Source: Reichenbachiella sp. (GTDB taxonomy: Bacteria; Bacteroidota; Bacteroidia; Cytophagales; Cyclobacteriaceae). From it: a stretch of DNA of 64,000 nucleotides. The translations under genes were made by a program, and so were the position numbers. Shown here piece by piece: positions 41,174 to 59,440 of this stretch. The number at the start of each line of letters is the position of its first letter. Within the stretch, counting starts at the first letter, position 1. The notes under the pieces are model-generated. The model did not search any database. It worked only from the letters and a program-made list of their open reading frames with translations, and was not told the origin of the DNA. The stretch spans positions 3,933,501 through 3,997,500 of the forward strand of contig NZ_JAWPMM010000001.1 in NCBI RefSeq assembly GCF_033344935.1, in the 5' to 3' direction.

Positions 41174-42466
41174 TTATAATGTCTTCAACACCTCTTCCAG
41201 CTGCCCTAGATCGGCATTCATTTCGATGGCTACTTTCTTGCGATCGATGTAGTCTTGCAGTCTTTGTGGAATTTCTACTTTCTCCTTGATGATAGGCTCT
41301 ACCACGTCCAAGAATTTCGCTGGATGGGCTGTTTCTAAAAATACACCTACGGCATCATTGTCTTTCAAATAAGCCTTCAATCCCAAATAGCCTACTGCGC
41401 CATGCGGATCTAACAAGTATCCAGTATCGGCATACACCTTTTTGATGGTCTCGCTGGTTTCCTCATCTGAGTAAGTATAACCTTTCAACTCCTTTCTAAA
41501 CGATTCGAGGTCGGCACCAAACAAATCATTCATTCTATAGAAGTTGCTCGGGTTGCCCACGTCCATGGCATTGGAAATGGTTTCGACTGATCGTCTCGGC
41601 TCAAAATTGCCGGATCTCAGGTAGGCCGGTACAATGTCGTTGGCATTAGCCGAAGCGATATACTGCTTGATCGGCAAGCCCATTTTCTTGGCCAGCAGAC
41701 CAGCGGTCAAGTTGCCATAGTTGCCACTTGGTACAGAGATCGCCAAATCCTTTTCTTCGCCCAACATGGCATAGGTCCAGAAGTAATAAAAAGACTGAGG
41801 AATCAGACGCGCCATATTGATAGAGTTGGCTGAAGTCAGGTTATACTTGGCCTTCATCTCCAGATTCAAGAACGAATCTTTGACCAACTTCTGACAATCG
41901 TCGAACGTGCCGTCCACTTCGCACGCGGTGATGTTTTCTCCAAGTGTAGTCAATTGCTGCTCCTGAATTTTGCTGATTTTCCCTTTCGGGTAAAGGATCA
42001 CCACGTTGATGTTTTTCATCCCTAAGAAACCGCTAGCTACCGCACTACCGGTATCGCCCGAAGTAGCCACCAGAATGGTAGCTTTCTTGTCGCTTTGGCG
42101 AGAGAAGTAGCTCAGACATCGGGCCAAAAACCTCGCTCCCACATCCTTAAATGCGCAAGTAGGGCCATGATACAGCTCCAGCGAATAAACACCTTCTTCC
42201 ACTTCTACCAAAGGCAAATCAAAAGCCAAGGTCCCCGCCACTATTTCCTTCAACTCCTTTTCAGGAATCTCATCTTCGATGAAACATTTCGCCACTTCAT
42301 AGGCAATGTCATGCAATGGCATGTCATGAATATTCTTAAAAAAATCAGCAGGCAACTGCTTTATTTCCTTTGGCATATACAAGCCATTGTCATCGGGCAA
42401 ACCTTGAAAAATGGCTTTTTCGAAACTTACTTCTGGGACTTGCTTATTGGTGCTATAATATTTCAT
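41174..42466 (-). CDS. thrC: Threonine synthase
   Basis: 430 residues from ATG 42466 (MKYYSTNKQVPEVSFEKA), which fits the family start; ATG 42484 would add 6. The PLP lysine lies in HGPTCAFKDVGARF; VATSGDTGSAVASGF binds the phosphate; SVPSGNYGNLTAGLLAKKMG is a later substrate block. It converts O-phosphohomoserine to threonine. It is the last gene of thrA-thrB-DUF1330-thrC. Confidence 0.96.
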   Translation of the reverse strand: MKYYSTNKQVPEVSFEKAIFQGLPDDNGLYMPKEIKQLPADFFKNIHDMPLHDIAYEVAKCFIEDEIPEKELKEIVAGTLAFDLPLVEVEEGVYSLELYHGPTCAFKDVGARFLARCLSYFSRQSDKKATILVATSGDTGSAVASGFLGMKNINVVILYPKGKISKIQEQQLTTLGENITACEVDGTFDDCQKLVKDSFLNLEMKAKYNLTSANSINMARLIPQSFYYFWTYAMLGEEKDLAISVPSGNYGNLTAGLLAKKMGLPIKQYIASANANDIVPAYLRSGNFEPRRSVETISNAMDVGNPSNFYRMNDLFGADLESFRKELKGYTYSDEETSETIKKVYADTGYLLDPHGAVGYLGLKAYLKDNDAVGVFLETAHPAKFLDVVEPIIKEKVEIPQRLQDYIDRKKVAIEMNADLGQLEEVLKTL

Positions 42467-42502
42467 TGTGTTCTTTCTATGCAATTCTATGCTAGAATTG
42501 GA

Positions 42503-42805
42503 TTACATTTTTTCTCCTTTAAACATCAAGATAGATTCTACAGATTCTTCTTTTAGATGCTTAAACTTCAGACGAGTATCGTCTTTCATAAATTCTTTCA
42601 ATTTGTCTTCCGACTCAAAACTGACAATATGGATTTCGTATGGCTTTCTTTCTTCACCATCGACATAAGCCGCTGACTCTGGTCGCAGTCTTTGCACCAG
42701 TTTGCCAGAATACTTTTCCATCAATGGAATAGCATGATTTTCAAATTCTTGAAAAATCGCTTCCTTTCCAGGTTTGATATAGATCAGTTGAGTGATGTAC
42801 AACAT
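42503..42805 (-). CDS. Small ferredoxin-like-fold protein, DUF1330 / ABM-like, in the thr operon
   Basis: 100 residues. MLYITQLIYIKPGKEAIFQEFE, a central EIHIVSFESEDKLKEFMKDD and a C-terminal strand fit the dimeric alpha-beta barrel (DUF1330 or antibiotic-biosynthesis monooxygenase-like) pattern. No catalytic residue is obvious. It lies 4 bp after thrB and 36 bp before thrC, so it is cotranscribed with threonine synthesis genes, where I know of no required role. Confidence 0.65.
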   Translation of the reverse strand: MLYITQLIYIKPGKEAIFQEFENHAIPLMEKYSGKLVQRLRPESAAYVDGEERKPYEIHIVSFESEDKLKEFMKDDTRLKFKHLKEESVESILMFKGEKM

Positions 42806-42809
42806 GGCC

Positions 42810-43733
42810 TTAGATGGCTCTTACGCCTTCTTTCCCTATTTTCGACATATATGAATACGCCAATATGCCTACTTCATCATATTTGGCTTGCATCAATGCT
42901 TTAATTTCCAAAGCCGTACTTTCCCCCTTACTAAACGCAAAAATAGAGGGGCCTGATCCAGCAATACTACATCCCAGTGCTCCGGCATCTAGTACGGCCT
43001 CTTTCACCTCGTCGTAAAGCGGAATCAATATTTTCCTTACAGGCTCCACTATTTTATCTACCATGGAACGACCGATGAGATCGTAGTCCGACTCGTACAG
43101 TCCTGACACCAAACCGCCAACATTGCCCCATTGCTCTACGGCAATCGAAAGATCCACTTGTTTTTTTAAGATCTTTTTAGCATCGGTGGTTTTGATTTCC
43201 ACTTGTGGGTGAATCACCGTCACGTACAAAACTTCTGGCACGGGCAATTGCAAAATATCCAACGGCTCGTAGCTACGCACTAAGGTAAACCCTCCTAGCA
43301 AGTTGGGCGCTACATTGTCTGCGTGTGCTTTTTTCGATACGACCTTCTCGCCTTCCATAGCAAACTCCACGAGCTGCATAGGAGTAAATGGCCTACCCAA
43401 TAATTCATTGACAGCAAAAACGCCACCTGCCGAACTGGATGCGCTAGTGCCCATGCCGCTACCAGGATTGATTGTTTTCTTTATCGTGAATGAAAAACCC
43501 TGCTTGCTCCCTGCCGCATTTAGCAGTGCCTGAGCAGCTACCGTTGCCGTATTTACAGTAGGATCTTTGGGTAGGTCAAACCCTATGATTTCGTCAATCA
43601 CCAGTTGACCATCGTCTCTTTTGGAGACTTCCATTTCTTCACCAATCCCAGCCAGGGCAAAACCCAATACGTCGTAGCCGCAACCTACATTGGCGACTGT
43701 TGAGGGAGAGAATATTTTAATTTTGTCAGGCAT
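42810..43733 (-). CDS. thrB: Homoserine kinase (GHMP family)
   Basis: 307 residues. GHMP motif 1 (FSPSTVANVGCGYDVLGFAL), the ATP loop NPGSGMGTSASSSAGG and motif 3 (GALGCSIAGSGPSIFAFSKG) are intact. It phosphorylates homoserine for ThrC. It starts 3 bp after thrA and ends 4 bp before the DUF1330-like gene. Confidence 0.96.
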   Translation of the reverse strand: MPDKIKIFSPSTVANVGCGYDVLGFALAGIGEEMEVSKRDDGQLVIDEIIGFDLPKDPTVNTATVAAQALLNAAGSKQGFSFTIKKTINPGSGMGTSASSSAGGVFAVNELLGRPFTPMQLVEFAMEGEKVVSKKAHADNVAPNLLGGFTLVRSYEPLDILQLPVPEVLYVTVIHPQVEIKTTDAKKILKKQVDLSIAVEQWGNVGGLVSGLYESDYDLIGRSMVDKIVEPVRKILIPLYDEVKEAVLDAGALGCSIAGSGPSIFAFSKGESTALEIKALMQAKYDEVGILAYSYMSKIGKEGVRAI

Positions 43734-43736
43734 AAT

Positions 43737-46181
43737 TTAGCTATTTGCAATTCGCATGATATCAGCAAATATACCCATCGCAGTCACTGCTGCACCAGCA
43801 CCAGCTCCTTTTATCACTAGTGGATTGTCGTCGTACCTGTGGGTATTAAACAACACGATATTGTCACTTCCTTCCAAATTATAGAATGGGTGCGATTTTC
43901 CAATTTCTTTTAATCCTACAGAGGCTTTGCCGTTGTCATAAGAAGCGACCACTTTCAAGCGAGCATTGTTAGCCTCGGCCTGCTCTACCAAAGATTGGAA
44001 ATGGGCATCATGCTCTTCCAACTTGGCGTAAAAGTCATTGTTATTATCCGTCTTCATACAAGCTTCAGGTATAAACGATTCGCTCACGATGTCATCCAAT
44101 TCGATTTCTACACCACATTCTCTGATCAAAATCAAAATCTTCCGCATTACATCTACACCACTCAAATCGATCTTTGGATCTGGCTCAGTGTATCCTTCCT
44201 CACCGGCTTGCTTCACGATATCCGCAAACTTCACTCCCGGCTTGAAATTATTAAAAATGAAGTTTAGGCTGCCAGAAAGTACAGCCTCAATTTTCTTTAC
44301 CTTATCACCACTCTTAATCAAGTCTTGTAGCGTAGTGATGACTGGCAAACCTGCGCCTACATTCGTCTCGTAGTAGAATTTAGACTTGTACTCACGCGCT
44401 GTGTTTTTCAGTTCTTGATAGTTTTCGTAAGAAGATGCACAAGCGATCTTATTAGGAGTGACTACCGAAATATTCTTATTCAAAATGCCGTTGTACAGAC
44501 CAGCAATCTCTGCGCTGGCTGTGTTGTCCACGAATACGCTATTACGCAAGTTCATGTCCTGAATTGCTTGAATGAAGGCGTCGTTCGACATTTTCAAATC
44601 GCTACCTAATAGCAAATCTTTCCACTTGGACAGATCAATACCGTCTTCATCGAAGAACATTTTCTTACTATTGGCCAAGCCAACTATACGCAAGTCGACG
44701 TGCTCGTTTTCACTCAAATATTCTTGTTGCTTAGCGATCTGCTGAATCAAAGTACCTCCCACATTTCCTATTCCGACTAGAAACAAGTTGATTCTTTTCT
44801 TCTCAGAAAGGAAGAAGCTTTCGTGTAATACGTTTAGCGATTTTTTGAGGTGACGCTCCTGGATCACTACCGTGATGTTTCTTTCAGACGAGCCCTGCGC
44901 AATGGCTTTGATGTTTACCCCATTTTCGCCAAGAGCGGCAAACATCTGCCCACTGATTCCCACGTGATCACGCATCTTGTCGCCTACTAAGGCCACGATG
45001 GCTAGGTTTTCTTCTACCTCTAGCGGATTGACTTTATTCAAGCTCAGTTCAAACTGAAACTCTTCTGCTATGGCAGCTCTACTCGCCTCCACGTCGTTGC
45101 CATCCACACCCACGCAGATCGAATGCTCAGACGAGGCCTGCGTAATGATGATCACATTCACTTTGGCTTCCGACAGAGCTTTGAACAGTCTGAAAGAGAA
45201 TTTCGGAATACCGATCATGCCACTACCCGACAAGTTGAGCAGTGCGATATTTTTTACACTTGATAAACCTTTTACGAACTGCTTTGATCCGTTGGAGTCG
45301 GCGCTAATGGTTGTACCGGCATCCTGAGGTCTAAAAGTGTTTTTGATCTTGATTGGAATGTTTTTGTCCAATGCCGGCTGAATGGTCGGCGGATAGATCA
45401 CTTTTGCTCCGAAGTGCGACAGCTCCATCGCTTCCTGATAGGAGATTTTTTCTATCGGATGTGCCGATGATACTGCTCTAGGATCGGAAGTCATCATACC
45501 GCTCACATCCGTCCAGATTTCGAAAGTATCTACTTCGAGTGCCGCCGCCAGAATGGCTGCTGTGTAGTCAGACCCGCCACGACCTAATGTGGTGTTTACA
45601 TTTTCCTCATTAGAAGAAACAAATCCAGGACAAACCACCAAGTCCGCCGATGATTTGAAAAATTTCTTAATGTTTTTATTGGTTGCACTAAACTCTACAA
45701 TGGCGTTGTTGAAAGTGCTATCGGTTTTGATCATGGCGCCAGTATTCCCCCAGTCGGTAGTCAAGCCTTCTGCGTTCAGGAAATCAACGATGATATTAGA
45801 AGACAATATCTCACCCATACCCAATACACGATCCAAAGATCTTGGCGAAAGCTCACCAATCAAAAAGATACCTTTCATGATATCTTCCAGGTCGTTCAAT
45901 AAGATTTTGGTTTTGCTGAGTGTACCCGATTGGTTTTTGACTGGTAGCAATTCTTTGACGGTATCAAGATGCCTAGCCTCAATTTTGGCGAATAGCTCCT
46001 GATACGACTCGTCACCAGCAGCAGCCAAGTCGCTACACTCATGGAGTAGGTTGGTCACGCCACCGAAGGCAGACACTACACACACTTGCTTTTCTTCTTT
46101 TCCAGCTGATAAGATGTCCTTTACCACTCTCAAATTATCCGGGGTACCTACGGATGTACCTCCAAATTTCAACACTTTCAT
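43737..46181 (-). CDS. thrA: Bifunctional aspartokinase / homoserine dehydrogenase
   Basis: 814 residues. Aspartokinase domain 1-290 with KFGGTSVGTPDNLR and LGRGGSDYTAAILA; two ACT domains (about 315-460, LLNLSGSGMIGIPKF and IVALVGDKMRDHVGISG); homoserine dehydrogenase about 465-814 with VGIGNVGGTLIQQI, NVGAGLPVITTLQDLIKSGD and YTEPDPKIDLSGVDVMRK. It makes aspartyl phosphate and reduces aspartate semialdehyde to homoserine; threonine feedback via ACT is expected from the family. Asd is not in this window. It lies 186 bp after ilvA, a gap filled with repeats. Confidence 0.97.
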   Translation of the reverse strand: MKVLKFGGTSVGTPDNLRVVKDILSAGKEEKQVCVVSAFGGVTNLLHECSDLAAAGDESYQELFAKIEARHLDTVKELLPVKNQSGTLSKTKILLNDLEDIMKGIFLIGELSPRSLDRVLGMGEILSSNIIVDFLNAEGLTTDWGNTGAMIKTDSTFNNAIVEFSATNKNIKKFFKSSADLVVCPGFVSSNEENVNTTLGRGGSDYTAAILAAALEVDTFEIWTDVSGMMTSDPRAVSSAHPIEKISYQEAMELSHFGAKVIYPPTIQPALDKNIPIKIKNTFRPQDAGTTISADSNGSKQFVKGLSSVKNIALLNLSGSGMIGIPKFSFRLFKALSEAKVNVIIITQASSEHSICVGVDGNDVEASRAAIAEEFQFELSLNKVNPLEVEENLAIVALVGDKMRDHVGISGQMFAALGENGVNIKAIAQGSSERNITVVIQERHLKKSLNVLHESFFLSEKKRINLFLVGIGNVGGTLIQQIAKQQEYLSENEHVDLRIVGLANSKKMFFDEDGIDLSKWKDLLLGSDLKMSNDAFIQAIQDMNLRNSVFVDNTASAEIAGLYNGILNKNISVVTPNKIACASSYENYQELKNTAREYKSKFYYETNVGAGLPVITTLQDLIKSGDKVKKIEAVLSGSLNFIFNNFKPGVKFADIVKQAGEEGYTEPDPKIDLSGVDVMRKILILIRECGVEIELDDIVSESFIPEACMKTDNNNDFYAKLEEHDAHFQSLVEQAEANNARLKVVASYDNGKASVGLKEIGKSHPFYNLEGSDNIVLFNTHRYDDNPLVIKGAGAGAAVTAMGIFADIMRIANS

Positions 46182-46186
46182 TATAT

Positions 46187-46211
46187 AAGATTTTAGACGT
46201 TAGACTCAAGA
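46187..46211. repeat. AAGATTTTAGA / GTTAGACTCAAGA intercistronic repeat, copy in ilvA-thrA gap
   Basis: AAGATTTTAGA (46187-46197) is identical to 51384-51394, and GTTAGACTCAAGA (46199-46211) is identical to 53142-53154. The three sites lie in three separate gaps of the same gene array, so they look like copies of one AT-rich repeat. Confidence 0.5.
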
Positions 46212-46294
46212 TATTAGGCTTGGGTCTTTATTTATTTAAGTTTTGAACTTTCGCTTACAACAAACTAAGCTAGGGTTCGATAATTATTCTAATA

Positions 46295-46322
46295 AGATTT
46301 CTCCCTATCGGTCGAAATGACA
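46295..46322. repeat. Single arm of the GTCATTnCGA repeat family
   Basis: On the minus strand TGTCATTTCGACCGATAGGG and then AGAAATCT; it aligns base for base with the arm at 48984-49013 (GTCATTGCGAGC...GCAATCT). No second arm is seen nearby. It occupies the ilvA-thrA gap. The remaining bases of that gap contain no gene or leader peptide. Confidence 0.55.
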
Positions 46323-46367
46323 ATACGTGATCAATGTCGCTATTCATTGGTCATTAATCACTTTTCA

Positions 46368-47636
46368 TTATACCAAATACTGCATCAAATCCGGTTTTTC
46401 ATTCAGGTATTCGAAAACGAAACTTTTGGTTTCCATTTTTTTGAATAAGTCCTGAAGGCTGTCCTTGTTTTGTAATTCTATTCCTATCAAAGCGGGTCCT
46501 TTTTCTCTGCTGTTCTTTTTCGAATACTCGAAATGAACAATATCATCACCAGGCCCAAGTACCTCCGTCAAAAACTCCCGAAGGGCACCAGCCCTTTGCG
46601 GAAATCGAATGATGAAGTAATGTTTGATGCCTTCATACAATAAAGACCGCTCTTTAATTTCTTCTGTTCGGGTAATGTCGTTGTTGCTGCCGCTGATCAC
46701 GCAGACTACTTTTTTGCCTTTGATCTTGTCTGCATAAAAGTCCAAGGCCGCCAAGCTCAGTGCACCTGCCGGCTCTACTACGATGGCTTCCTGATTGTAC
46801 AATTGCAGGATCATCGAGCACACCTTGCCTTCTGGTACGAGGATGATATCATCCAAACCTTCTTTGCAAATTTCTAAAGTCTTGGCTCCTACTTGCTTCA
46901 CCGCTGCGCCGTCGATAAAGGTGTCGATCTTTGGCAATATGATGTTGGTGCCTTGAGCGATGGAGTCCTTCATAGCCGGTGCTCCAGTAGGCTCTACGCC
47001 AATGATTTTCGTATTCGGAGATAATGTTTTCAGTGCAGTAATGGCACCTGCAGCCAAACCACCACCACCGATTGGCACGAACAAATAATCGATCGGGCCA
47101 TCTGCATCTTCTAAGATTTCTAAGGCAACGGTTCCTTGTCCTTCGATTACTTTTTCGTCATCGAATGGATGCACGAAAGTAGCCTGATGCTTGTCGCAAT
47201 AATCGATCGCATGATTGTAAGCATCATCGAAAGTATCACCCACGAGAACCACCTCAACCACCTCTTTGCCAAACATACGAACTTGCCCGATCTTCTGCTT
47301 GGGCGTAACACTTGGCATAAAGATCGTGCCTTTGATTCCGAGTTTTTGACACGAGTAGGCTACACCTTGTGCGTGGTTGCCAGCGCTGGCACAGACGATG
47401 CCATTGGCTCGTTCGCTGTCGTTGAGGCTGGATATTTTATGGTAGGCTCCACGGATTTTGTAGGAGCGTACGGCTTGCAGATCTTCTCTTTTGAATGAGA
47501 TATCTGCCTGATATCTTTCAGAAAAATTAAGATTTTTCATCAAGGGTGTACGCACAACTACATTGTTGAGCTTCACCTTGGCGGCTTGTATGCCTTCGTA
47601 AGAAGGTATGTTGATATCGGCGGCAGCTATTCCCAT
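46368..47636 (-). CDS. ilvA: Threonine ammonia-lyase (biosynthetic threonine deaminase)
   Basis: 422 residues. The PLP lysine lies in AVRSYKIRGAYHK; SAGNHAQGVAYSC and GGGGLAAG bind substrate and phosphate; one C-terminal ACT-like domain (about 335-422, HYFIIRFPQRAGALREFL) makes it the shorter regulated type. It yields 2-ketobutyrate for isoleucine. It follows the aminotransferase by 6 bp. Confidence 0.93.
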   Translation of the reverse strand: MGIAAADINIPSYEGIQAAKVKLNNVVVRTPLMKNLNFSERYQADISFKREDLQAVRSYKIRGAYHKISSLNDSERANGIVCASAGNHAQGVAYSCQKLGIKGTIFMPSVTPKQKIGQVRMFGKEVVEVVLVGDTFDDAYNHAIDYCDKHQATFVHPFDDEKVIEGQGTVALEILEDADGPIDYLFVPIGGGGLAAGAITALKTLSPNTKIIGVEPTGAPAMKDSIAQGTNIILPKIDTFIDGAAVKQVGAKTLEICKEGLDDIILVPEGKVCSMILQLYNQEAIVVEPAGALSLAALDFYADKIKGKKVVCVISGSNNDITRTEEIKERSLLYEGIKHYFIIRFPQRAGALREFLTEVLGPGDDIVHFEYSKKNSREKGPALIGIELQNKDSLQDLFKKMETKSFVFEYLNEKPDLMQYLV

Positions 47637-47642
47637 TTTATA

Positions 47643-48968
47643 TCAGACGTCTACCTCTTCGTTTATGTCGGAAGTACAAAACTCATTGATCGCATCAGCG
47701 ATTTTGCTGAAGGTCTCGTGCAAGACTTCTTTGTTTTCTTCGAGTAGCGTGATTCTAAAGCCTCTCAATTCGGATTGAAAAGAAGACAATGGCACCACAC
47801 ATACGCCTTTTGCGGCAAGCAAATAATACACAAATCGCTTGTCTGGTTCACCTATGCGCTCTACCCAAGATTCAGCCAAGGCTTTGACCTCAGTGTTATC
47901 TATCTGCAAGGCTTGATTGTTATTCAAGACGCCGTCTTTGAATACAATGGTATTGTAGAATGCCCCGTTCGTTTTGTTGAAAGTCACATAAGGCAGATCC
48001 TTCAAATACTGCGAAATGATTTCACTTCGTTCTGCGATTTCAGTTCTTCGCTGAGCCAGATACTCCTGATAGTTAGGGTGTTCCTGAATCAGAGGCAATG
48101 CCTTTTGTGGCAAGGTAGTAGAACACACCTCTACCATCTTAGCATTTTCTAGCGTAGCGCAATATTTGTTAAATTCTTCGTCGGCCTCACGATTGTAGAA
48201 CTCCATCCAGCCACACCGGCTGCCTGGCCACGGGCAGTCTTTGGATATACCTTTCAGTGCGATACCTGGCACATCTCCCAAAACTTCCGACAAGGCTTTT
48301 GTCTTTGTGTCGTTGTAAATGATGTTGGTATAGATCTCATCGCTGGCAATGAAGAGATTGAATTCTTTTGCGATCTCTACGATCTTCATCAAATACTCCT
48401 CGGGATATACCATACCCGTTGGGTTGTCCGGATTGATGATCAGGATACCCACGATATTTGGATTGTATTTCACTTTTAGACGCAAGTCGTCTAAGTCCGG
48501 ATACCAGTTGTTTTCTGGATCCAGGTTATAAGTGAGCGGTTCTTTGTTGGAATGTGCTGCCTCCAAAGCAGAGTGCGTAGAATAAGCCGGTGACGGCCCT
48601 ATCACTCTCGAATAAGGATTGAGAAACTGATACAGTTTTCCAATCGCATCACCCAATCCATTGAAGAATAACACATCGTCGGCAGTGATCTGCACGCCGT
48701 TCTTTTTGTTGTTTTTCTGAGCCAGGTATTGTCTGGTCTCCAACACGCCTTTCGAATGGCAATAGCCATAGGTAGAGTTTTCATTGACCAATCCAGTCAA
48801 AATCTCCTTGATCCAGGCAGGTACGACTGCATGCTTCAATATCGGATCTCCAATATTTTCCCAATAGATCCGTTGGTCCAACGCTTGTAGGGCTTCAGCT
48901 TTCTTGACTATGTCTCTGATTTCATAGTCCAGCTGGCTCGATCCTTCATGTAGTAGTACTTGGCGCAT
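47643..48968 (-). CDS. PLP-dependent class I/II aminotransferase in the ilv array
   Basis: 441 residues. Fold-type I features: YGYCHSKGVLETRQYLAQKN, PAYSTHSALEA, IINPDNPTGMVY, IASDEIYTNI and the PLP-lysine block KGISKDCPWPGSRCGWMEF. Related enzymes include alanine or valine-pyruvate type aminotransferases. Its position between ilvN and ilvA suggests transamination of branched-chain or 2-keto acids, but substrate cannot be read from sequence. It stands where ilvC is often found in related operons. Confidence 0.85.
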   Translation of the reverse strand: MRQVLLHEGSSQLDYEIRDIVKKAEALQALDQRIYWENIGDPILKHAVVPAWIKEILTGLVNENSTYGYCHSKGVLETRQYLAQKNNKKNGVQITADDVLFFNGLGDAIGKLYQFLNPYSRVIGPSPAYSTHSALEAAHSNKEPLTYNLDPENNWYPDLDDLRLKVKYNPNIVGILIINPDNPTGMVYPEEYLMKIVEIAKEFNLFIASDEIYTNIIYNDTKTKALSEVLGDVPGIALKGISKDCPWPGSRCGWMEFYNREADEEFNKYCATLENAKMVEVCSTTLPQKALPLIQEHPNYQEYLAQRRTEIAERSEIISQYLKDLPYVTFNKTNGAFYNTIVFKDGVLNNNQALQIDNTEVKALAESWVERIGEPDKRFVYYLLAAKGVCVVPLSSFQSELRGFRITLLEENKEVLHETFSKIADAINEFCTSDINEEVDV

Positions 48969-48982
48969 TTTTGTCTTTTTTT

Positions 48983-49056
48983 ACGTCATTGCGAGCTTTA
49001 GCGAAGCAATCTCATCAATTATTAAGATTGCGTCGTCGTCCCTCCTCGCAATGACG
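48983..49056. repeat. CGTCATTGCGAG palindromic repeat, two arms, between ilvN and aminotransferase
   Basis: ACGTCATTGCGAG (48983-48995) is an exact inverted copy of CTCGCAATGACGT (49044-49056); inside, GCAATCT and AGATTGC also pair. It matches the element at 7895-7977 and fills most of the 97-bp gap, so the transcript would carry a large hairpin here. Confidence 0.75.
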
Positions 49057-49065
49057 TTTTAAATT

Positions 49066-49626
49066 TTAGTAGTCTTTAATACTTAATAGATTTGACTTGG
49101 TCTCTTCCAATTCTTTGATATAAGCTTCTGTCTTACGCTTGGATTTGGAAATGGCTACGCGACCTGATCGTACAAACTCCAGCAAGCCTAATGGCTCTAG
49201 TTTTTGGTACAAATCGTGCGTATCTGCCATGTGACCCGTTTTCTCGATGATGATATGATCTTCTTCGATCACCAGTATTCTAGCACCATTATTTCGTACC
49301 AAAGTCTCGATTTTGTTTCCATTCAAGAAAACAGTCGTAGGCACTTTGTACAAAGCGATTTCTTGATAGTAGATTTCATTCTCTTCGTAAACGAAGGCTC
49401 CCAACACTTCAATCAGCTTTCTAAACTGCTTGCAGCAGTTATCTGCACTGTCTCTGGTAGTGGTGATCACGATCGTAAACCTACTAATCCCAGCCACCTC
49501 GGTAGTCGAGACATTAAGAGAATCGATGTTGATTTTTCTACGATTCAAGATCACGGTGAGATGGTTGAGTAAACCCGCTCTATCTTCGGTAAGTACCGAT
49601 AATGTATATTGTTTTTCTGCTTCCAT
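49066..49626 (-). CDS. ilvN: Acetolactate synthase small (regulatory) subunit
   Basis: 186 residues. The N-terminal ACT domain (YTLSVLTEDRAGLLNHLTVI, LNVSTTEVAGISRFTIVI) binds valine in the family; the second half (EIALYKVPTTVF, RILVIEEDHIIIEKTGH) is the C-terminal regulatory domain. It pairs with the large subunit encoded 5 bp upstream. Confidence 0.94.
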   Translation of the reverse strand: MEAEKQYTLSVLTEDRAGLLNHLTVILNRRKINIDSLNVSTTEVAGISRFTIVITTTRDSADNCCKQFRKLIEVLGAFVYEENEIYYQEIALYKVPTTVFLNGNKIETLVRNNGARILVIEEDHIIIEKTGHMADTHDLYQKLEPLGLLEFVRSGRVAISKSKRKTEAYIKELEETKSNLLSIKDY

Positions 49627-49631
49627 GATTA

Positions 49632-51371
49632 CTATCTTTCCAATTTCACTTCAGATACAGACGCCCCTGTAGGCACCATTGGGAATACATTTCCTTCTTG
49701 CTCTACACCGACCTCCAACAAATATGGCCCGTCGTGTTCCAAGAACACATTTACCGCTACGGCAAGCTCTTTTCTATCAGTCACTTTATTACAAGGAATG
49801 CCATACCCTTTTGATATCATTTGAAAATCTGGGTTGATCATTTCCGTGTGGGCGTATCTTTTGTCAAAAAACATTTCTTGCCATTGACGAACCATTCCCA
49901 AAAACTGATTATTCAAAATCAATATTTTGACACCAATGTTACTTTGGAATATGGTACCCAATTCCTGAATGGTCATCTGAAAACCTCCATCCCCAATAAC
50001 AGCTATGACCTCCTTTTCAGGGCGAGCCACTTTGGCTCCCATCGCCGCCGGCAACGAGAATCCCATCGTGCCTAATCCACCAGAAGTAACGTTGCATCTG
50101 GTATCATCAAAGGCATAATATCGACTCGCAATCATCTGATGTTGCCCCACATCTGTTACGATAATGGCTTTACCTTTCGTCTGATCGGATATCAATTTGA
50201 TAACTTCAGCCATTTTGATTTCTTCCTTTTCAGAATGAAGATCAAGCTTCTTTACTTTTTCAAACTCTTTGGCATCACAATCGCGAAACTCCTGAAGCCA
50301 TGCCTCATGCTTATTGGCAGTTGTTTCTTTTCCGAGCTGAATCAAAGCAGCTTTAGCATCGCTTACAATGGCTACATCAGTCTTTACATTTTTGTCAACT
50401 TCGGCAGGGTCGATCTCGATGTGAACGATCTTGGCTTGCTTGGCATATCTGCTCAGATCACCAGTCACCCGATCATCAAATCGCATACCTACCGCAATGA
50501 TCACATCTGCTTCGTTGGTCTTTACATTCGGCCCATAGTTGCCATGCATCCCTAGCATTCCTACATATAATGGATGTTTGTCAGGAACGGCAGACAATCC
50601 CAGCAAGGTAGAAGCCATAGGAATTCCCGCCTTTTCTGCAAAAGCCAACAATTCACTTTGCGCTTGCGAAATCAAAACACCGTGTCCTACCAACATCAAA
50701 GGCTTCTTGGCTTGGTTGATGATAGCCGCAGCCTCAGTCACCTTAGATTGCTGTAAAATTGGAAACGGGTGGTAACTCCTGATTTTAGTACACTTCTCGT
50801 ATACTGGAAAATCAAATTCAGTCACCTGCGCGTCTTTGGTGATATCTATCAAAACCGGCCCTGGTCTACCTGTATTGGCTATGTAAAAAGCCTTGGCAAT
50901 AGCCTGAGGTATTTCTTCTGCCTTGGTTACCTGAAAATTCCACTTTGTCACAGGCATAGAAATGCCGATCACATCAGTTTCCTGAAAGGCATCCGTACCC
51001 AAAAGGTGAGAAAACACCTGACCTGTAATAGCCACCATAGGGGTAGAATCGATTTGAGCGTCCGCGATACCGGTAATCAAATTGGTAGCACCTGGTCCAG
51101 ATGTAGCCATACACACGCCTGTTTTCCCATTCACTCTTGCGAATCCTTGTGCAGCGTGCGCAGCGCCCTGCTCATGTCTTACCAAGATGTGATTTAATCG
51201 GTCCGAGTATTTATATAGTTCATCATAGACTGGCATAATTGCACCACCTGGATACCCAAAGAGTGTATCTACTCCTTCGGCCAGCAAGCACTCAAGCAAA
51301 GCCTGTGAGCCTGTCAATCTTTTCGTTCCTTGTTTTGGTTTATCTTCCAATTCTAGTGTCGATGTGTTCAT
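49632..51371 (-). CDS. ilvB: Acetolactate synthase large (catalytic) subunit
   Basis: 579 residues. TPP enzyme with catalytic Glu in [19 protein letters not shown]-binding middle domain (about 205-350), and ThDP/Mg motif [19 protein letters not shown]. It makes acetolactate for valine and leucine and acetohydroxybutyrate for isoleucine. It is 5 bp from ilvN and 88 bp after ilvD. Confidence 0.97.
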
Positions 51372-51383
51372 TTTGATAGATTC

Positions 51384-51438
51384 AAGATTTTAGATTCAAG
51401 ATTCAAGTTTGAAGACTTAGTCTTGGCTCTTGAATCTT
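51384..51438. repeat. Intercistronic repeat with hairpin in ilvD-ilvB gap
   Basis: AAGATTCAAG (51398-51407) pairs with CTTGAATCTT (51429-51438). The gap also holds AAGATTTTAGA shared with 46187-46197 and repeated CTTGGCTCTTG units. It takes up most of the 88-bp gap. Confidence 0.5.
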
Positions 51439-51459
51439 GGCTCTTGTTTCGCATTTAGG

Positions 51460-53130
51460 TTATTCGTCGGTTACACAACCTTCTGAGGCTGATGCTACTT
51501 GGTTGATATATTTTCTTAAAATTCCTTTTTTGGCTTTGTACTCCGGCTGCACCCAAGCGGCTTTTCGTTTCGCCATTTCTTCATCAGAAATTTTCAAATT
51601 CATTTCGTTTTTCACTGCGTCGATGCTGATGATATCACCATCTCTCACCAATGCCAATGGTCCACCTTCTTGCGATTCTGGCGTCACGTGCCCTACCACA
51701 AATCCATGTGATCCTCCCGAGAATCGTCCATCAGTAATTAGTGCTACGTCTTTACCCAAGCCAGCGCCCATCACGGCACTTGTAGGCTTCAGCATCTCCG
51801 GCATACCAGGTGCACCTTTAGGGCCTGACTGTCTGATGACAATCACTTCACCTTTTTTTACATCCTTGCCTATGCCTTCGATCGCTTCAAATTCATCCTC
51901 ATAGCATCTCGCTGGTCCTTCGAAGTATTCTCCTTCTTTACCAGTGATTTTTGCTACAGAACCTTCTGGCGCTAGATTTCCGTAAAGGATCTGCAAGTGA
52001 CCAGATGGCTTGATAGGATCAGAGAAAGAATGAATAATTTTTTGTCCTTCTTTCAATGATGGCCCTTCTTCAATATTTTCCGCCAAGGTCTTGCCAGTCA
52101 CTGTCATACAGTCGCCGTGCAAGTATCCTTCGTGCAATAATGCTTTCATCACTGCTGGAACACCACCCACAAAGTGAAGGTCTTCCATCAAGTATTTACC
52201 ACTTGGTTTCAAGTCGGCAATGAAAGGCGTGCTGTCTGAGATTCTTTGGAAATCGTCCAGACCGATCGGCACATCCACAGATTTCGCCATAGCGATCAAG
52301 TGAAGCACTGCATTGGTAGAACCACCCAAAATCATGATGATACGAATCGCATTTTCGAATGCCTCTTTGGTCATGATATCTCTTGGACGCAAGTCTTGCT
52401 CTAGCAAGTGTCGCACAGCCTGACCTACTCGATAAGTCTCTTGTTTCTTGTCATCGCTTTCTGCTGGATTAGAAGACGATGACGGTAAGCTCATGCCCAT
52501 CGCCTCGATAGCCGATGACATGGTGTTGGCGGTGTACATCCCTCCACAGGCTCCAGGGCCTGGGATTGAGTTTTTGATGATACCATTGTAATCTTCATCC
52601 GAAATATTGTTGGCTAGTTTTTGGCCGTAAGCCTCAAATGCCGAAACAATATTCAAATCTTCGCCTTTCCATTTTCCTGGTCTTACGGTTCCACCGTATA
52701 CCATCAATCCCGGTCTGTTCAATCGACCCAAGGCCATGATAGAACCGGGCATGTTTTTGTCACAACCAACGACAGGAACTACCGCATCGTAAAACTGTGC
52801 ATTCACAACTGTTTCGATCGAATCGGCAATGATATCTCTGGAAATCAGAGAATATTTCATCCCTGTGGTCCCATTGGAAATCCCGTCACTAACTCCAATG
52901 GTGTGGAAAATCAAGCCCACAAGATCAGCTTCACGCACACCCTTTTTCACCTGATGTGATAAAATATTAAGGTGCATGTTGCATGGATTGCCTTCGAAGC
53001 CTGTGCTAACGATCCCAACTTGTGCTTTTTTCATATCCTCTTCAGACAGGCCAGTAGCATAAAGCTGCGCTTGAGATGCTGGCTGTGAAGGGTCTTGTGT
53101 GATCGTTTTGCTGTATTTGTTTAAACTCAT
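51460..53130 (-). CDS. ilvD: Dihydroxyacid dehydratase
   Basis: 556 residues, the shorter common type. Iron-sulfur cysteines lie in [16 protein letters not shown] and [28 protein letters not shown] and [15 protein letters not shown] are further family blocks. It dehydrates the dihydroxy acids to the 2-keto acids of isoleucine and valine. It lies between ilvE (120-bp gap with repeat) and ilvB. Confidence 0.97.
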
Positions 53131-53141
53131 GTTATTCGGAT

Positions 53142-53182
53142 GTTAGACTCAAGAGTCAAGAACCAAGATTTGATTCTTGACT
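53142..53182. repeat. Intercistronic repeat with hairpin in ilvE-ilvD gap
   Basis: GTTAGACTCAAGA (53142-53154) is shared with 46199-46211; AGTCAAGAA (53154-53162) pairs with TTCTTGACT (53174-53182). A further CTTGGCTCTT unit lies at about 53226. Confidence 0.5.
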
Positions 53183-53250
53183 TATTTGATGTCCATATTT
53201 CTATTTTTAAATTCTGTCTTTATTCTTGGCTCTTAAAATCTAGCCTATGA

Positions 53251-54141
53251 TTACACCAATGTGAAATCGCTAAGCTCCGCATTGCTCACTCGCTGGCGAT
53301 ACATGAGGAACAAGTCATAAGCCACGGTTTCTTTCCAGTCCTTCTTGAATTCCATATCGTCGATGGAAGCGATACTCGCTACTTCTGTCGCGGTACCCGT
53401 GAAGAAGGCTACTTCTGCGCCTTTCATTTCTTCCGGCTTGAATAGCTTCTCCACTACTGGGTAACCCAACTCCATCGCATACTCGATGATGGTCGCTCTG
53501 GTGATGCCTGGTAAGATATTGCCAAGTGGTGGAGTGTAAATCACATCATCTTTCACGAAGAAGAAGTTTTGACCCGATCCTTCTGCTACATAGCCTTCTG
53601 AGTCTAGCAACAAAGCTTCGTCGTACCCATTTCTCTTGGCTTCGTTAGACGCCATGATCGAATTGGTGTAGTTACCTGATACTTTGGCATCAACAGGGAT
53701 CGACTTCGGATTCGGTCTTTCGATAGAAGAGATCATTACTTTCAAAGCTTCGTCACCCAAATATGGAGGCCAGTCCCAAGCCGCCATCATCACATGCACT
53801 TCTCCACAAGAGAGCAGCTTCATGTTGGCACCGAGATAAACCATCGGACGGATGTACGCATTGCTCAATCCATTTCTATCCAATAATTCATAAGAGATTT
53901 TAACTAACTCATCTACTGACTGGCTGATTTTGATATTCATCTTTTCAGCTGAGTATTTAAGTCTTTCGAAATGTTCCTTGGCCTTGAAGACATTGGGTCC
54001 GGCTGCACCAGCGTACGATCGGATACCTTCAAAGACACCGTTACCATAGTGCATGGTCTGGCTAAACAAGTCAACTTTAGCTTCTGATGCTTTTACCCAC
54101 TGTCCGTCTAGGAAAAGGATCGAATTTTCGTTGTAATACAT
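53251..54141 (-). CDS. ilvE: Branched-chain amino acid aminotransferase
   Basis: 296 residues, fold-type IV PLP enzyme. FLDGQWVKASEAKVDLFSQT, HYGNGVFEGIRSY, IRPMVYLGA, the PLP lysine in DAKVSGNYTNSIMA, EALLLDSEGYVAEGSGQNFF and FTGTATEV follow the IlvE order. It makes isoleucine, valine and leucine from their keto acids. It is the first structural gene after the tandem attenuators and its long leader implies termination control. Confidence 0.96.
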   Translation of the reverse strand: MYYNENSILFLDGQWVKASEAKVDLFSQTMHYGNGVFEGIRSYAGAAGPNVFKAKEHFERLKYSAEKMNIKISQSVDELVKISYELLDRNGLSNAYIRPMVYLGANMKLLSCGEVHVMMAAWDWPPYLGDEALKVMISSIERPNPKSIPVDAKVSGNYTNSIMASNEAKRNGYDEALLLDSEGYVAEGSGQNFFFVKDDVIYTPPLGNILPGITRATIIEYAMELGYPVVEKLFKPEEMKGAEVAFFTGTATEVASIASIDDMEFKKDWKETVAYDLFLMYRQRVSNAELSDFTLV

Positions 54142-54200: not shown

Positions 54201-54226
54201 CTGCCGCGCTCCGCTCGCAGTGACGG
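54201..54226. repeat. Single arm of the CGTCACTGCGAG repeat family in the ilvE leader
   Basis: On the minus strand CCGTCACTGCGAGCGGAGCG, followed by CGGCAG, an arm of the same family as 7895-7977 and 48983-49056. It lies just after the second attenuator terminator and before ilvE. Confidence 0.5.
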
Positions 54227-54230
54227 CAAC

Positions 54231-54261
54231 AAAAAAGCCTTTCTCTGTAGAGAAAGGCTTT
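54231..54261 (-). terminator. Attenuator terminator 2 (proximal to ilvE)
   Basis: On the minus strand AAAGCCTTTCTCT pairs perfectly with AGAGAAAGGCTTT (54249-54261 with 54234-54246), followed by a run of six T in all (54231-54236). The 5' arm segment CCTTTCTC (54250-54257) is also complementary to GAGAGAGG at the end of leader peptide 2 (54284-54291), with one G-U pair. Confidence 0.9.
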
Positions 54262-54289
54262 AGAATCTTTTGGTTCTTATATACCTCTC

Positions 54290-54352
54290 TCACGTATCAC
54301 CAATAATGGTAATAATCACGATGGCTAATACAGTGACAATTGTCGTTATCAT
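54290..54352 (-). CDS. ilv leader peptide 2
   Basis: 20 residues, MITTIVTVLAIVIITIIGDT: seven Ile, three Val, five Thr, one Leu. It starts 24 nt after terminator 1 and stops 29 nt before the 5' arm of terminator 2. The TGA is part of the GAGAGAGG segment (54284-54291) that can pair with that arm. Ribosome stalling on Ile/Val/Thr codons would leave this segment free to form an antiterminator; completion of translation would mask it and let the terminator form. Too short for ordinary gene calling. Confidence 0.85.
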   Translation of the reverse strand: MITTIVTVLAIVIITIIGDT

Positions 54353-54375
54353 TTTTTGGGTCAACATTTGGGTAT

Positions 54376-54409
54376 AAAAAAAGCGCCATCCTGTTGGGAA
54401 TGACGCTTT
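54376..54409 (-). terminator. Attenuator terminator 1 (distal)
   Basis: On the minus strand AAAGCGTCAT (54400-54409) pairs with ATGGCGCTTT (54380-54389) with one G-U pair, followed by a T tract (54376-54382 overlapping the arm). TCATTCCC (54396-54403), in the 5' arm and loop, is exactly complementary to GGGAATGA at the leader 1 stop (54436-54443). Confidence 0.88.
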
Positions 54410-54435
54410 AGAATATCGTTTTATACTATTGCATA

Positions 54436-54504
54436 TCATTCCCGACCTGAGGTGACTGTGACCTCGGTAATAATCGCTAATGCTATGACAATAATATTCT
54501 TCAT
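54436..54504 (-). CDS. ilv leader peptide 1
   Basis: 22 residues beginning MKNIIVIALAIIT: five Ile, three Val, three Thr and one Leu. The start is 22 nt after a TACCTTTG -7 box and the stop TGA lies within GGGAATGA, which is complementary to the 5' arm of terminator 1. Codons 14-19 also form a small hairpin (GAGGT/ACCTC, 54449-54465) that could act as the pause structure. This is the full layout of an amino-acid-controlled attenuator. Confidence 0.88.
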   Translation of the reverse strand: MKNIIVIALAIITEVTVTSGRE

Positions 54505-54525: not shown

Positions 54526-54533
54526 CAAAGGTA
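54526..54533 (-). promoter_or_regulatory. Putative -7 box of the ilv operon promoter
   Basis: TACCTTTG on the minus strand, a perfect TAnnTTTG match, 55 bp after the leuB stop and 22 bp before leader peptide 1. No clear TTTG is present 19-24 bp upstream, so the -33 element is weak. Confidence 0.5.
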
Positions 54534-59269: not shown

Positions 59270-59440
59270 TTACTCGCAGCCAAAGGCATACAAAAAGTTT
59301 TCGTTGGTACCCCGACAATGGGAAGAGGCTAAAAACACTCTAGCAGTGATTTCCTTCTTGTCCATTTCAAATTCTTCTTGAAAGGTATCCAACTGTTGAT
59401 TCTCTTTTTTCGGGTTATTTTTATTGTTGTAATTGTCCAT
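59270..59440 (-). CDS. 56-residue conserved-looking small protein between leuA and leuC
   Basis: ATG 59440 lies 3 bp after the leuA stop. The product begins MDNYNNKNNPKKENQQ and ends ENFLYAFGCE, with cysteines at 42 (SSHCRGTN) and 55. It has an Asn/Lys-rich start, an acidic helix (about 17-32) and no signal peptide or TM. It has few leucine codons (three), so it does not look like a leader peptide. The hairpin at 59233-59257 follows 12 bp after its stop. Function unknown. Confidence 0.5.
   Translation of the reverse strand: MDNYNNKNNPKKENQQLDTFQEEFEMDKKEITARVFLASSHCRGTNENFLYAFGCE

Follow-up and report, generated by a model that had tools for sequence, protein, structure and literature searches.

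In the leuB-ilvE gap of a genome from the marine bacterium Reichenbachiella, on the minus strand of the 64,000-nucleotide stretch of DNA analysed here (the window), two short units are arranged in series ahead of a run of ilv and thr genes. We think it probable, on balance, that the two act as serial gates on one signal, the charging of the Ile and Val tRNAs, and that their doubling tightens control by multiplication. The anatomy of the units, their conservation, their codon bias and the one promoter element that precedes them are read directly from the DNA.

Two candidate attenuators in series upstream of ilvE

Unit 1 starts with leader ORF 1 (54436-54504, minus strand, like the other elements of both units; MKNIIVIALAIITEVTVTSGRE followed by the stop codon), which is open and alignable in all eight Reichenbachiella genomes. 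Inside the end of this ORF lies a hairpin, P1 (54449-54465, with 54465-54460 paired to 54454-54449), and after it region 2 (GGGAATGA, 54436-54443), which includes the ORF 1 stop and can form an antiterminator with TCATTCCC (54403-54396), the 5' arm of the terminator. Terminator 1 itself (54380-54409) has 12 pairs that are kept in 8/8 sequences and then a T run. In unit 2, leader ORF 2 (54290-54352; MITTIVTVLAIVIITIIGDT and its stop codon) has an equivalent in seven of the eight genomes, and its start was placed at ATGATAACG on the grounds that relatives retain this codon as ATG or GTG. Region 2 of this unit (GAGAGAGGT, 54283-54291) overlaps the ORF 2 stop and pairs, with two G-U pairs, to GCCTTTCTC (54258-54250), and terminator 2 (54234-54261) has an equivalent stem in 7/8 genomes. 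Both short leader ORFs are rich in codons for the product of the pathway, an intrinsic terminator separates each of them from the genes, and the antiterminator, judged by pairing and conservation, excludes the terminator and reaches the end of the ORF; it is by these features that we recognize a ribosome-mediated attenuator. An earlier, sequence-only reading had described two independent attenuators in tandem, and this description holds, since every element of an attenuator, from the Ile/Val-rich ORF through the antiterminator pairing to the intrinsic terminator, is present in each unit. That both are real attenuators we regard as very likely.

Both units occur in seven of the eight Reichenbachiella genomes, the eighth (G006) having unit 1 only. 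Four of the six base pairs of P1 have changed on both sides and 95.8% of cells in the eight sequences are paired, the sixth pair being unformed in the window and in L005; in unit 1 of the genus, all of P1 (alignment columns 41-57) precedes region 2 (columns 63-71). The nine pairs of the unit 1 antiterminator are kept in 8/8 sequences, seven of them invariant, and since most columns of the antiterminator and terminator never vary, retention of these pairs says little. When partners were shifted by one to three alignment columns, pairing was 65% at most. Within the genus, codon differences were 64 synonymous and 223 non-synonymous in ORF 1, and 24 and 54, respectively, in ORF 2, and in neither unit did they reveal purifying selection on the exact leader peptide sequence. 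At the level of sequence, the conserved feature of the leaders is their Ile/Val-rich content and frame, not the exact peptide. L005 and L006 carry differing insertions between unit 1 and unit 2.

Gene neighbourhood of the tandem units

Behind the device the minus strand carries ilvE, ilvD, ilvB, ilvN, an aminotransferase gene, ilvA, thrA, thrB, a 100-aa ORF and thrC (41174-54141), so that the ilv and thr genes named in the sequence-only reading are indeed in place. The window ilvE and its counterpart in R. faecimaris DSM 26133 share 97% identity, and no minus-strand terminator scoring 13 or more was found from 54234 to 34730. The 100-aa ORF occupies 42503-42805 of the minus strand, in the thrB-thrC gap. 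Between terminator 2 and ilvE, at about 54201-54228, there is a short REP-like palindrome that is missing at the equivalent site in L005-L010 and has one more copy, with three mismatches, in the genome. On the other side of the device, a 56-aa ORF in the leuA-leuC gap (59270-59440, minus strand, with the C-terminal end ...RVFLASSHCRGTNENFLYAFGCE) gave no Pfam match up to an E value of 1, and reading frames resembling it lie just 5' of the attenuators in L007-L009. In one genome, G002, the leu genes (L222, 15788-18999) are 63-68% identical to those of the window and the ilv genes 80-96%; its leu cluster looks to have been exchanged, with the attenuator pair alongside nonetheless retained. The thrA of G002 (L222, 5008-7450) matches as two abutting pieces in different frames, reflecting either a broken gene or a sequencing error.

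Minus-strand terminators scoring at least 13 were likewise not found between leuA (60619) and terminator 1, a finding that would suit terminators whose chief task is to block readthrough from the leu into the ilv genes, with the leaders secondary. We consider this very improbable: the pair is retained whether leuB or leuA is the upstream gene, with leuA next upstream in four genomes and diverged leu genes in G002, and an antiterminator and a promoter element would be purposeless in a device of that kind.

A promoter element before unit 1

A -7-like promoter element, TACCTTTG (54526-54533, minus strand), lies 22-29 nt 5' of ORF 1 and fits TAnnTTTG, which we take to be the Bacteroidota promoter consensus. 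Of 27 tandem loci, 17 had an exact TAnnTTTG match within 75 nt 5' of ORF 1, and one had such a match 5' of ORF 2 (Fisher p 5e-6); among 18 clade representatives the numbers were 12 and one, respectively, and the background in mononucleotide-shuffled ORF 1 windows was 0.053. Stop 1 and start 2 were 66-100 nt apart in 17 of the 18 representatives. Because of this spacing and of the bias of the element towards ORF 1, we favour a single transcription start 5' of unit 1. RNA polymerase starting at the lone element would have to pass both units, which agrees with the earlier statement that transcription must do so. In three Chryseobacterium loci (L061-L063) the element lies just 5-12 nt before ORF 1, and peptide 1 may thus begin at or beside the 5' end of the RNA.

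The spacing of 66-100 nt could also be expected if the leader ORFs worked via translational coupling or reinitiation instead of transcription attenuation, and a published account proposes leader-gene reinitiation (PMC4833913). The T-run terminators and the conserved alternative pairing in each unit of the genus argue against this, and we rate it as extremely improbable.

Both units appear to read the same amino acids

In the window, unit 2 contains seven Ile and five Thr codons and unit 1 five and three, so the sequence-only reading was right in calling unit 2 the richer in both. Its further suggestion, that the units may sense different mixes, fared poorly, since the paired comparison of unit 1 and unit 2 across the 18 representatives showed no significant difference for any of four amino acids (Wilcoxon p 0.068 for Ile, 0.47 for Val, 0.66 for Leu and 0.82 for Thr) and Thr was often absent. 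When all 27 pairs, which are non-independent, were used, Ile was slightly higher in unit 2 (p 0.011). Among the representatives, Ile was present in both units in 18/18, and Val was missing from unit 1 in 2/18; Leu was missing from unit 1 in 7/18 and from unit 2 in 3/18, and Thr in 6/18 and 7/18.

The composition of the window could nevertheless be taken to indicate an AND gate, in which unit 1 senses mainly Ile/Val and unit 2 Ile/Thr (or Leu), and the ilv-thr genes open when both are short. The five Thr codons of unit 2 speak for it, as does gene order within the genus, where thrABC follows ilvA in 7/7 tandem genomes and not in the single-unit genome, whose thrA is about 40 kb away; this link to thr depends on that one genome. 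Thr codons are, however, not conserved in close relatives (one each in L006, L008 and L009, against five in the window), and none of the nine tandem loci outside the genus has a thr gene in the fetched stretch. Together with the non-significant paired differences across the 18 representatives, this makes the AND gate improbable in our view. The related idea that Thr codons track linked thr genes was dropped as unsupported outside the genus, given the same nine loci.

Codon choice points to a signal shared by both units. In the leaders of 103 loci, GTC accounts for 182 of 336 Val codons and ATT for 481 of 647 Ile codons; in the ilvE genes at these loci, the figures are 175 of 1652 and 776 of 1793, respectively. 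Since GTC makes up 54% of Val codons in unit 1, unit 2 and single leaders alike, the preference for AUU and GUC is common to all three. It is bound to the reading frame: in 54 tandem leaders, GTC occurred 79 times in the codon frame and 6 and 3 times off-frame, and ATT 231 times against 10 and 21. The Ile/Val codons peak 5-13 codons before the leader stop, a position from which a stalled ribosome would not cover the stop region. The genome of the window has tRNA-Val genes with GAC and TAC anticodons; a tRNA-Ile(GAU) gene was not seen among the 150 candidates scored out of 354, which we read as a limit of the scan. Theory by Elf and colleagues is said to hold that charging-sensitive codons are chosen in leaders, and the AUU/GUC preference yields a clear prediction of the tRNAs sensed. 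We conclude that both units likely read the same Ile/Val signal.

Pairing within and between the units

In a fold model of 14 units from seven loci, with probabilities taken at the emergence of the terminator 3' arm, a ribosome stalled at the Ile/Val codons left the terminator 5' arm paired upstream with a probability of about 1 in 14/14 units. Placing the ribosome at the stop lowered upstream pairing to less than 0.5 in six units and to 0.5-0.8 in six; in two units, both of them from L012, it stayed at or above 0.97. At full equilibrium the terminator was favoured at most stall positions (at 0.96 throughout for unit 2 of the window), meaning that the switch, as modelled, must be kinetic.

Averaged over 27 loci, cognate pairing amounted to -12.6 and -13.2 kcal/mol and cross pairing between the units to -8.1 and -7.6 kcal/mol, although one cross pairing beats a cognate one in several loci (L012, L013, L037, L043, L096 and L101). 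Selection for orthogonal stems was considered and rejected, as cross pairing within a locus (-8.18 kcal/mol) hardly differed from that between loci (-8.04 kcal/mol, p 0.61).

Tandem and single units across Bacteroidota

Units were called by a detector requiring a terminator, an ORF 12-45 codons long in which Ile, Val, Leu and Thr make up at least 35%, and a pairing of at least 5 bp. Of 72 ilvE upstreams, 57 yielded one unit or more and 17 yielded two, the leader-terminator pairing being partly built into the detector. None of 360 dinucleotide shuffles scored; reverse complements gave one unit in 3/72, and other gene starts in the same loci scored in 7 of 350 cases, all seven being ilvE leaders reached from another start codon. 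Elsewhere in the window, this rather loose detector made false hits in 5 of 558 overlapping tiles, corresponding to four distinct places, and under a stricter terminator and pairing score open to any amino acid, terminators 1 and 2 were the sole leader-ORF terminators of the window.

The main sample consisted of 139 non-redundant ilvE upstreams, nearly all from Bacteroidota (149 before near-identical loci were removed), among which the script called a single unit 88 times, two units 25 times, three units once and no unit 25 times. Coverage is that of genomes with a close ilvE, namely 23 of 59 (E 1e-60) and 57 of 242 and 35 of 296 (E 1e-70). From genome contigs, 50 of 55 loci were used. The five set aside were L027 and L028, which duplicate the genomes of L005 and L010, L040, whose upstream stretch is 65 nt long, and L077 and L079, titled as proteobacterial MAGs; L076, which was kept, bears a proteobacterial title as well. 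Curation reduced the 26 two- or three-unit calls to 23, because those in L016, L050 and L132 were judged spurious, as products of upstream gene ends, as was the first unit of L111. L006, L013, L042, L082 and L101 were classed as tandem by hand, and the first ORF of L061 was replaced by hand; L082 stands outside the 27 pairs of the paired analyses because the start of its first ORF was not fixed. L017 and L143 have second terminators that look tandem and were left as single for want of a convincing second leader. The final counts were 28 tandem (23 from the script and five by hand), 86 single, some of them doubtfully labelled (e.g. L098, L131, L132 and L154), and 25 without a unit. The same reading had called the tandem arrangement unusual, a word that needs qualifying with 28 of 139 ilvE upstreams in the tandem state.

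Among the tandem loci are those of Reichenbachiella, others of its family and some from records with the titles Flavobacteriales, Fluviicola, Ulvibacter, Aureispira and Chryseobacterium. The tandem state was also traced on a FastTree tree of ilvE alone, in which some branches, including that of L022, are long and many forks are weak. There it changed at least 15 times over all rows and at least 13 times among rows with a unit, implying that it has been gained or lost repeatedly; with 86 of 139 loci scored as carrying a single unit, the second is not essential. Upstreams of ilvD had one unit in 3 of 29 cases and two in none, in a comparison that used 29 of 57 places without the window locus and consisted partly of coding sequence where ilvE is directly upstream.

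These changes of state, at least 13 on the tree, would be in keeping with a second unit that arose by duplication or conversion and is tolerated as a redundant copy, without a selected gain in steepness. The likeness of ORF 1 and ORF 2 also points that way, exceeding that of codon shuffles in five of seven Reichenbachiella genomes (p 0.0005-0.008, tests that are not independent). On the other hand, the stems of the two units differ: among the 18 representatives, the ratio of unit 1 to unit 2 was 9:1 for class A stems and 1:12 for class B stems (p 1e-4, with 13 of 36 stems unclassed), so most pairs are not fresh copies. Both units are, moreover, intact in the 7/8 genomes of the genus. A merely tolerated duplicate thus seems unlikely to us, and the balance leans, if modestly, towards a pair selected for tighter or steeper control. 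An initial view of class A leaders as rich in Ile and of class B leaders as rich in Leu did not survive the paired test (Leu p 0.66).

Discussion

What we infer beyond the anatomy concerns stalling, termination efficiencies, co-transcription and the multiplicative logic. Under the preferred reading of two gates on one signal, both attenuators would be ribosome-mediated and transcribed in series from the promoter just 5' of unit 1. When charged tRNA-Ile or tRNA-Val is short, the ribosome would stall on AUU or GUC, 5-13 codons before the stop, and the stop-codon region, left free, would pair with the terminator 5' arm, so that RNA polymerase reads on; a ribosome reaching the stop would cover this region and the terminator would form. 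With the same signal in both units, RNA polymerase would have to be let through twice and readthrough would multiply (p1 x p2), with lower basal expression when Ile and Val are plentiful and a steeper response as the expected outcome. Multiplied readthrough had also been put forward in the sequence-only reading, and the sequence data are consistent with it.

If this is true, a textbook attenuator has repeatedly evolved into a two-stage form that reads one signal twice. We tentatively raise the possibility that paired attenuators read by ribosomes recur in Bacteroidota as a class, at the head of operons that start with ilvE. Their two gates, set for the same tRNAs (the decoders of AUU and GUC), would by multiplication give an Ile/Val switch that is ultrasensitive, and the class would imply close coupling of transcription and translation in this phylum. 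Loci with one unit, with both and with a unit lost can be compared inside a single genus and among near relatives, which makes it directly testable how two gates in series alter leak and slope. Moreover, attenuation needs a ribosome close behind RNA polymerase, which makes the leaders a handle on transcription-translation coupling in Bacteroidota, a subject on which, to our knowledge, there is little work.

Classical attenuators such as those of trp, ilvGMEDA and thr consist of control codons, an antiterminator and an intrinsic terminator. The units described here have the same parts, but two sets of them in series. They also depart from the four-segment trp type, in that unit 1 of Reichenbachiella has no 1:2 hairpin competing for segment 2, P1 preceding region 2 and not sequestering it. 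The novelty apparently lies in ordinary attenuator parts that are doubled for one signal. Our literature search returned no ilv leader attenuators, single or paired, in Bacteroidota; its scope did not extend to Lopatovskaya et al. 2010 and Vitreschak et al. 2004, which are reportedly surveys of leader attenuators and may mention this phylum. A 2010 paper stated that, before its own Firmicutes case, leader-peptide systems were unknown outside Proteobacteria and Actinobacteria (PMC2965389).

The Salmonella mgtCBR leader, as its authors describe it (PMC3641672), contains two attenuating leader ORFs that respond to ATP and proline and is called a "singular example" by them. Like mgtCBR, the Reichenbachiella leader has two serial short ORFs, each controlling transcription, at least as predicted here. 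The mgtCBR units, by that account, sense different signals, act additively and lack intrinsic terminators, whereas both units here look Ile/Val-directed, being alike in Ile, Val, Leu and Thr content by sequence, and possess intrinsic terminators.

The closest parallel comes from the tandem T-boxes located ahead of ilv, leu, trp and thr operons of Bacillota, for which a 2025 survey expects pseudo-cooperative output and states that, among riboswitches, tandem control of the branched-chain pathway is exclusive to Bacillota (PMC12452182). T-box covariance models had no match in the window, whose sole Rfam match at gathering score is a tRNA. The two arrangements share two serial sensors of tRNA charging, each with its own terminator, before branched-chain genes, both of which have to be passed. 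T-boxes bind uncharged tRNA directly, whereas the sensor here would be the translating ribosome, and the phylum is Bacteroidota. The tandem units before ilvE would then, if our reading is true, be a ribosome-based equivalent of tandem T-boxes.
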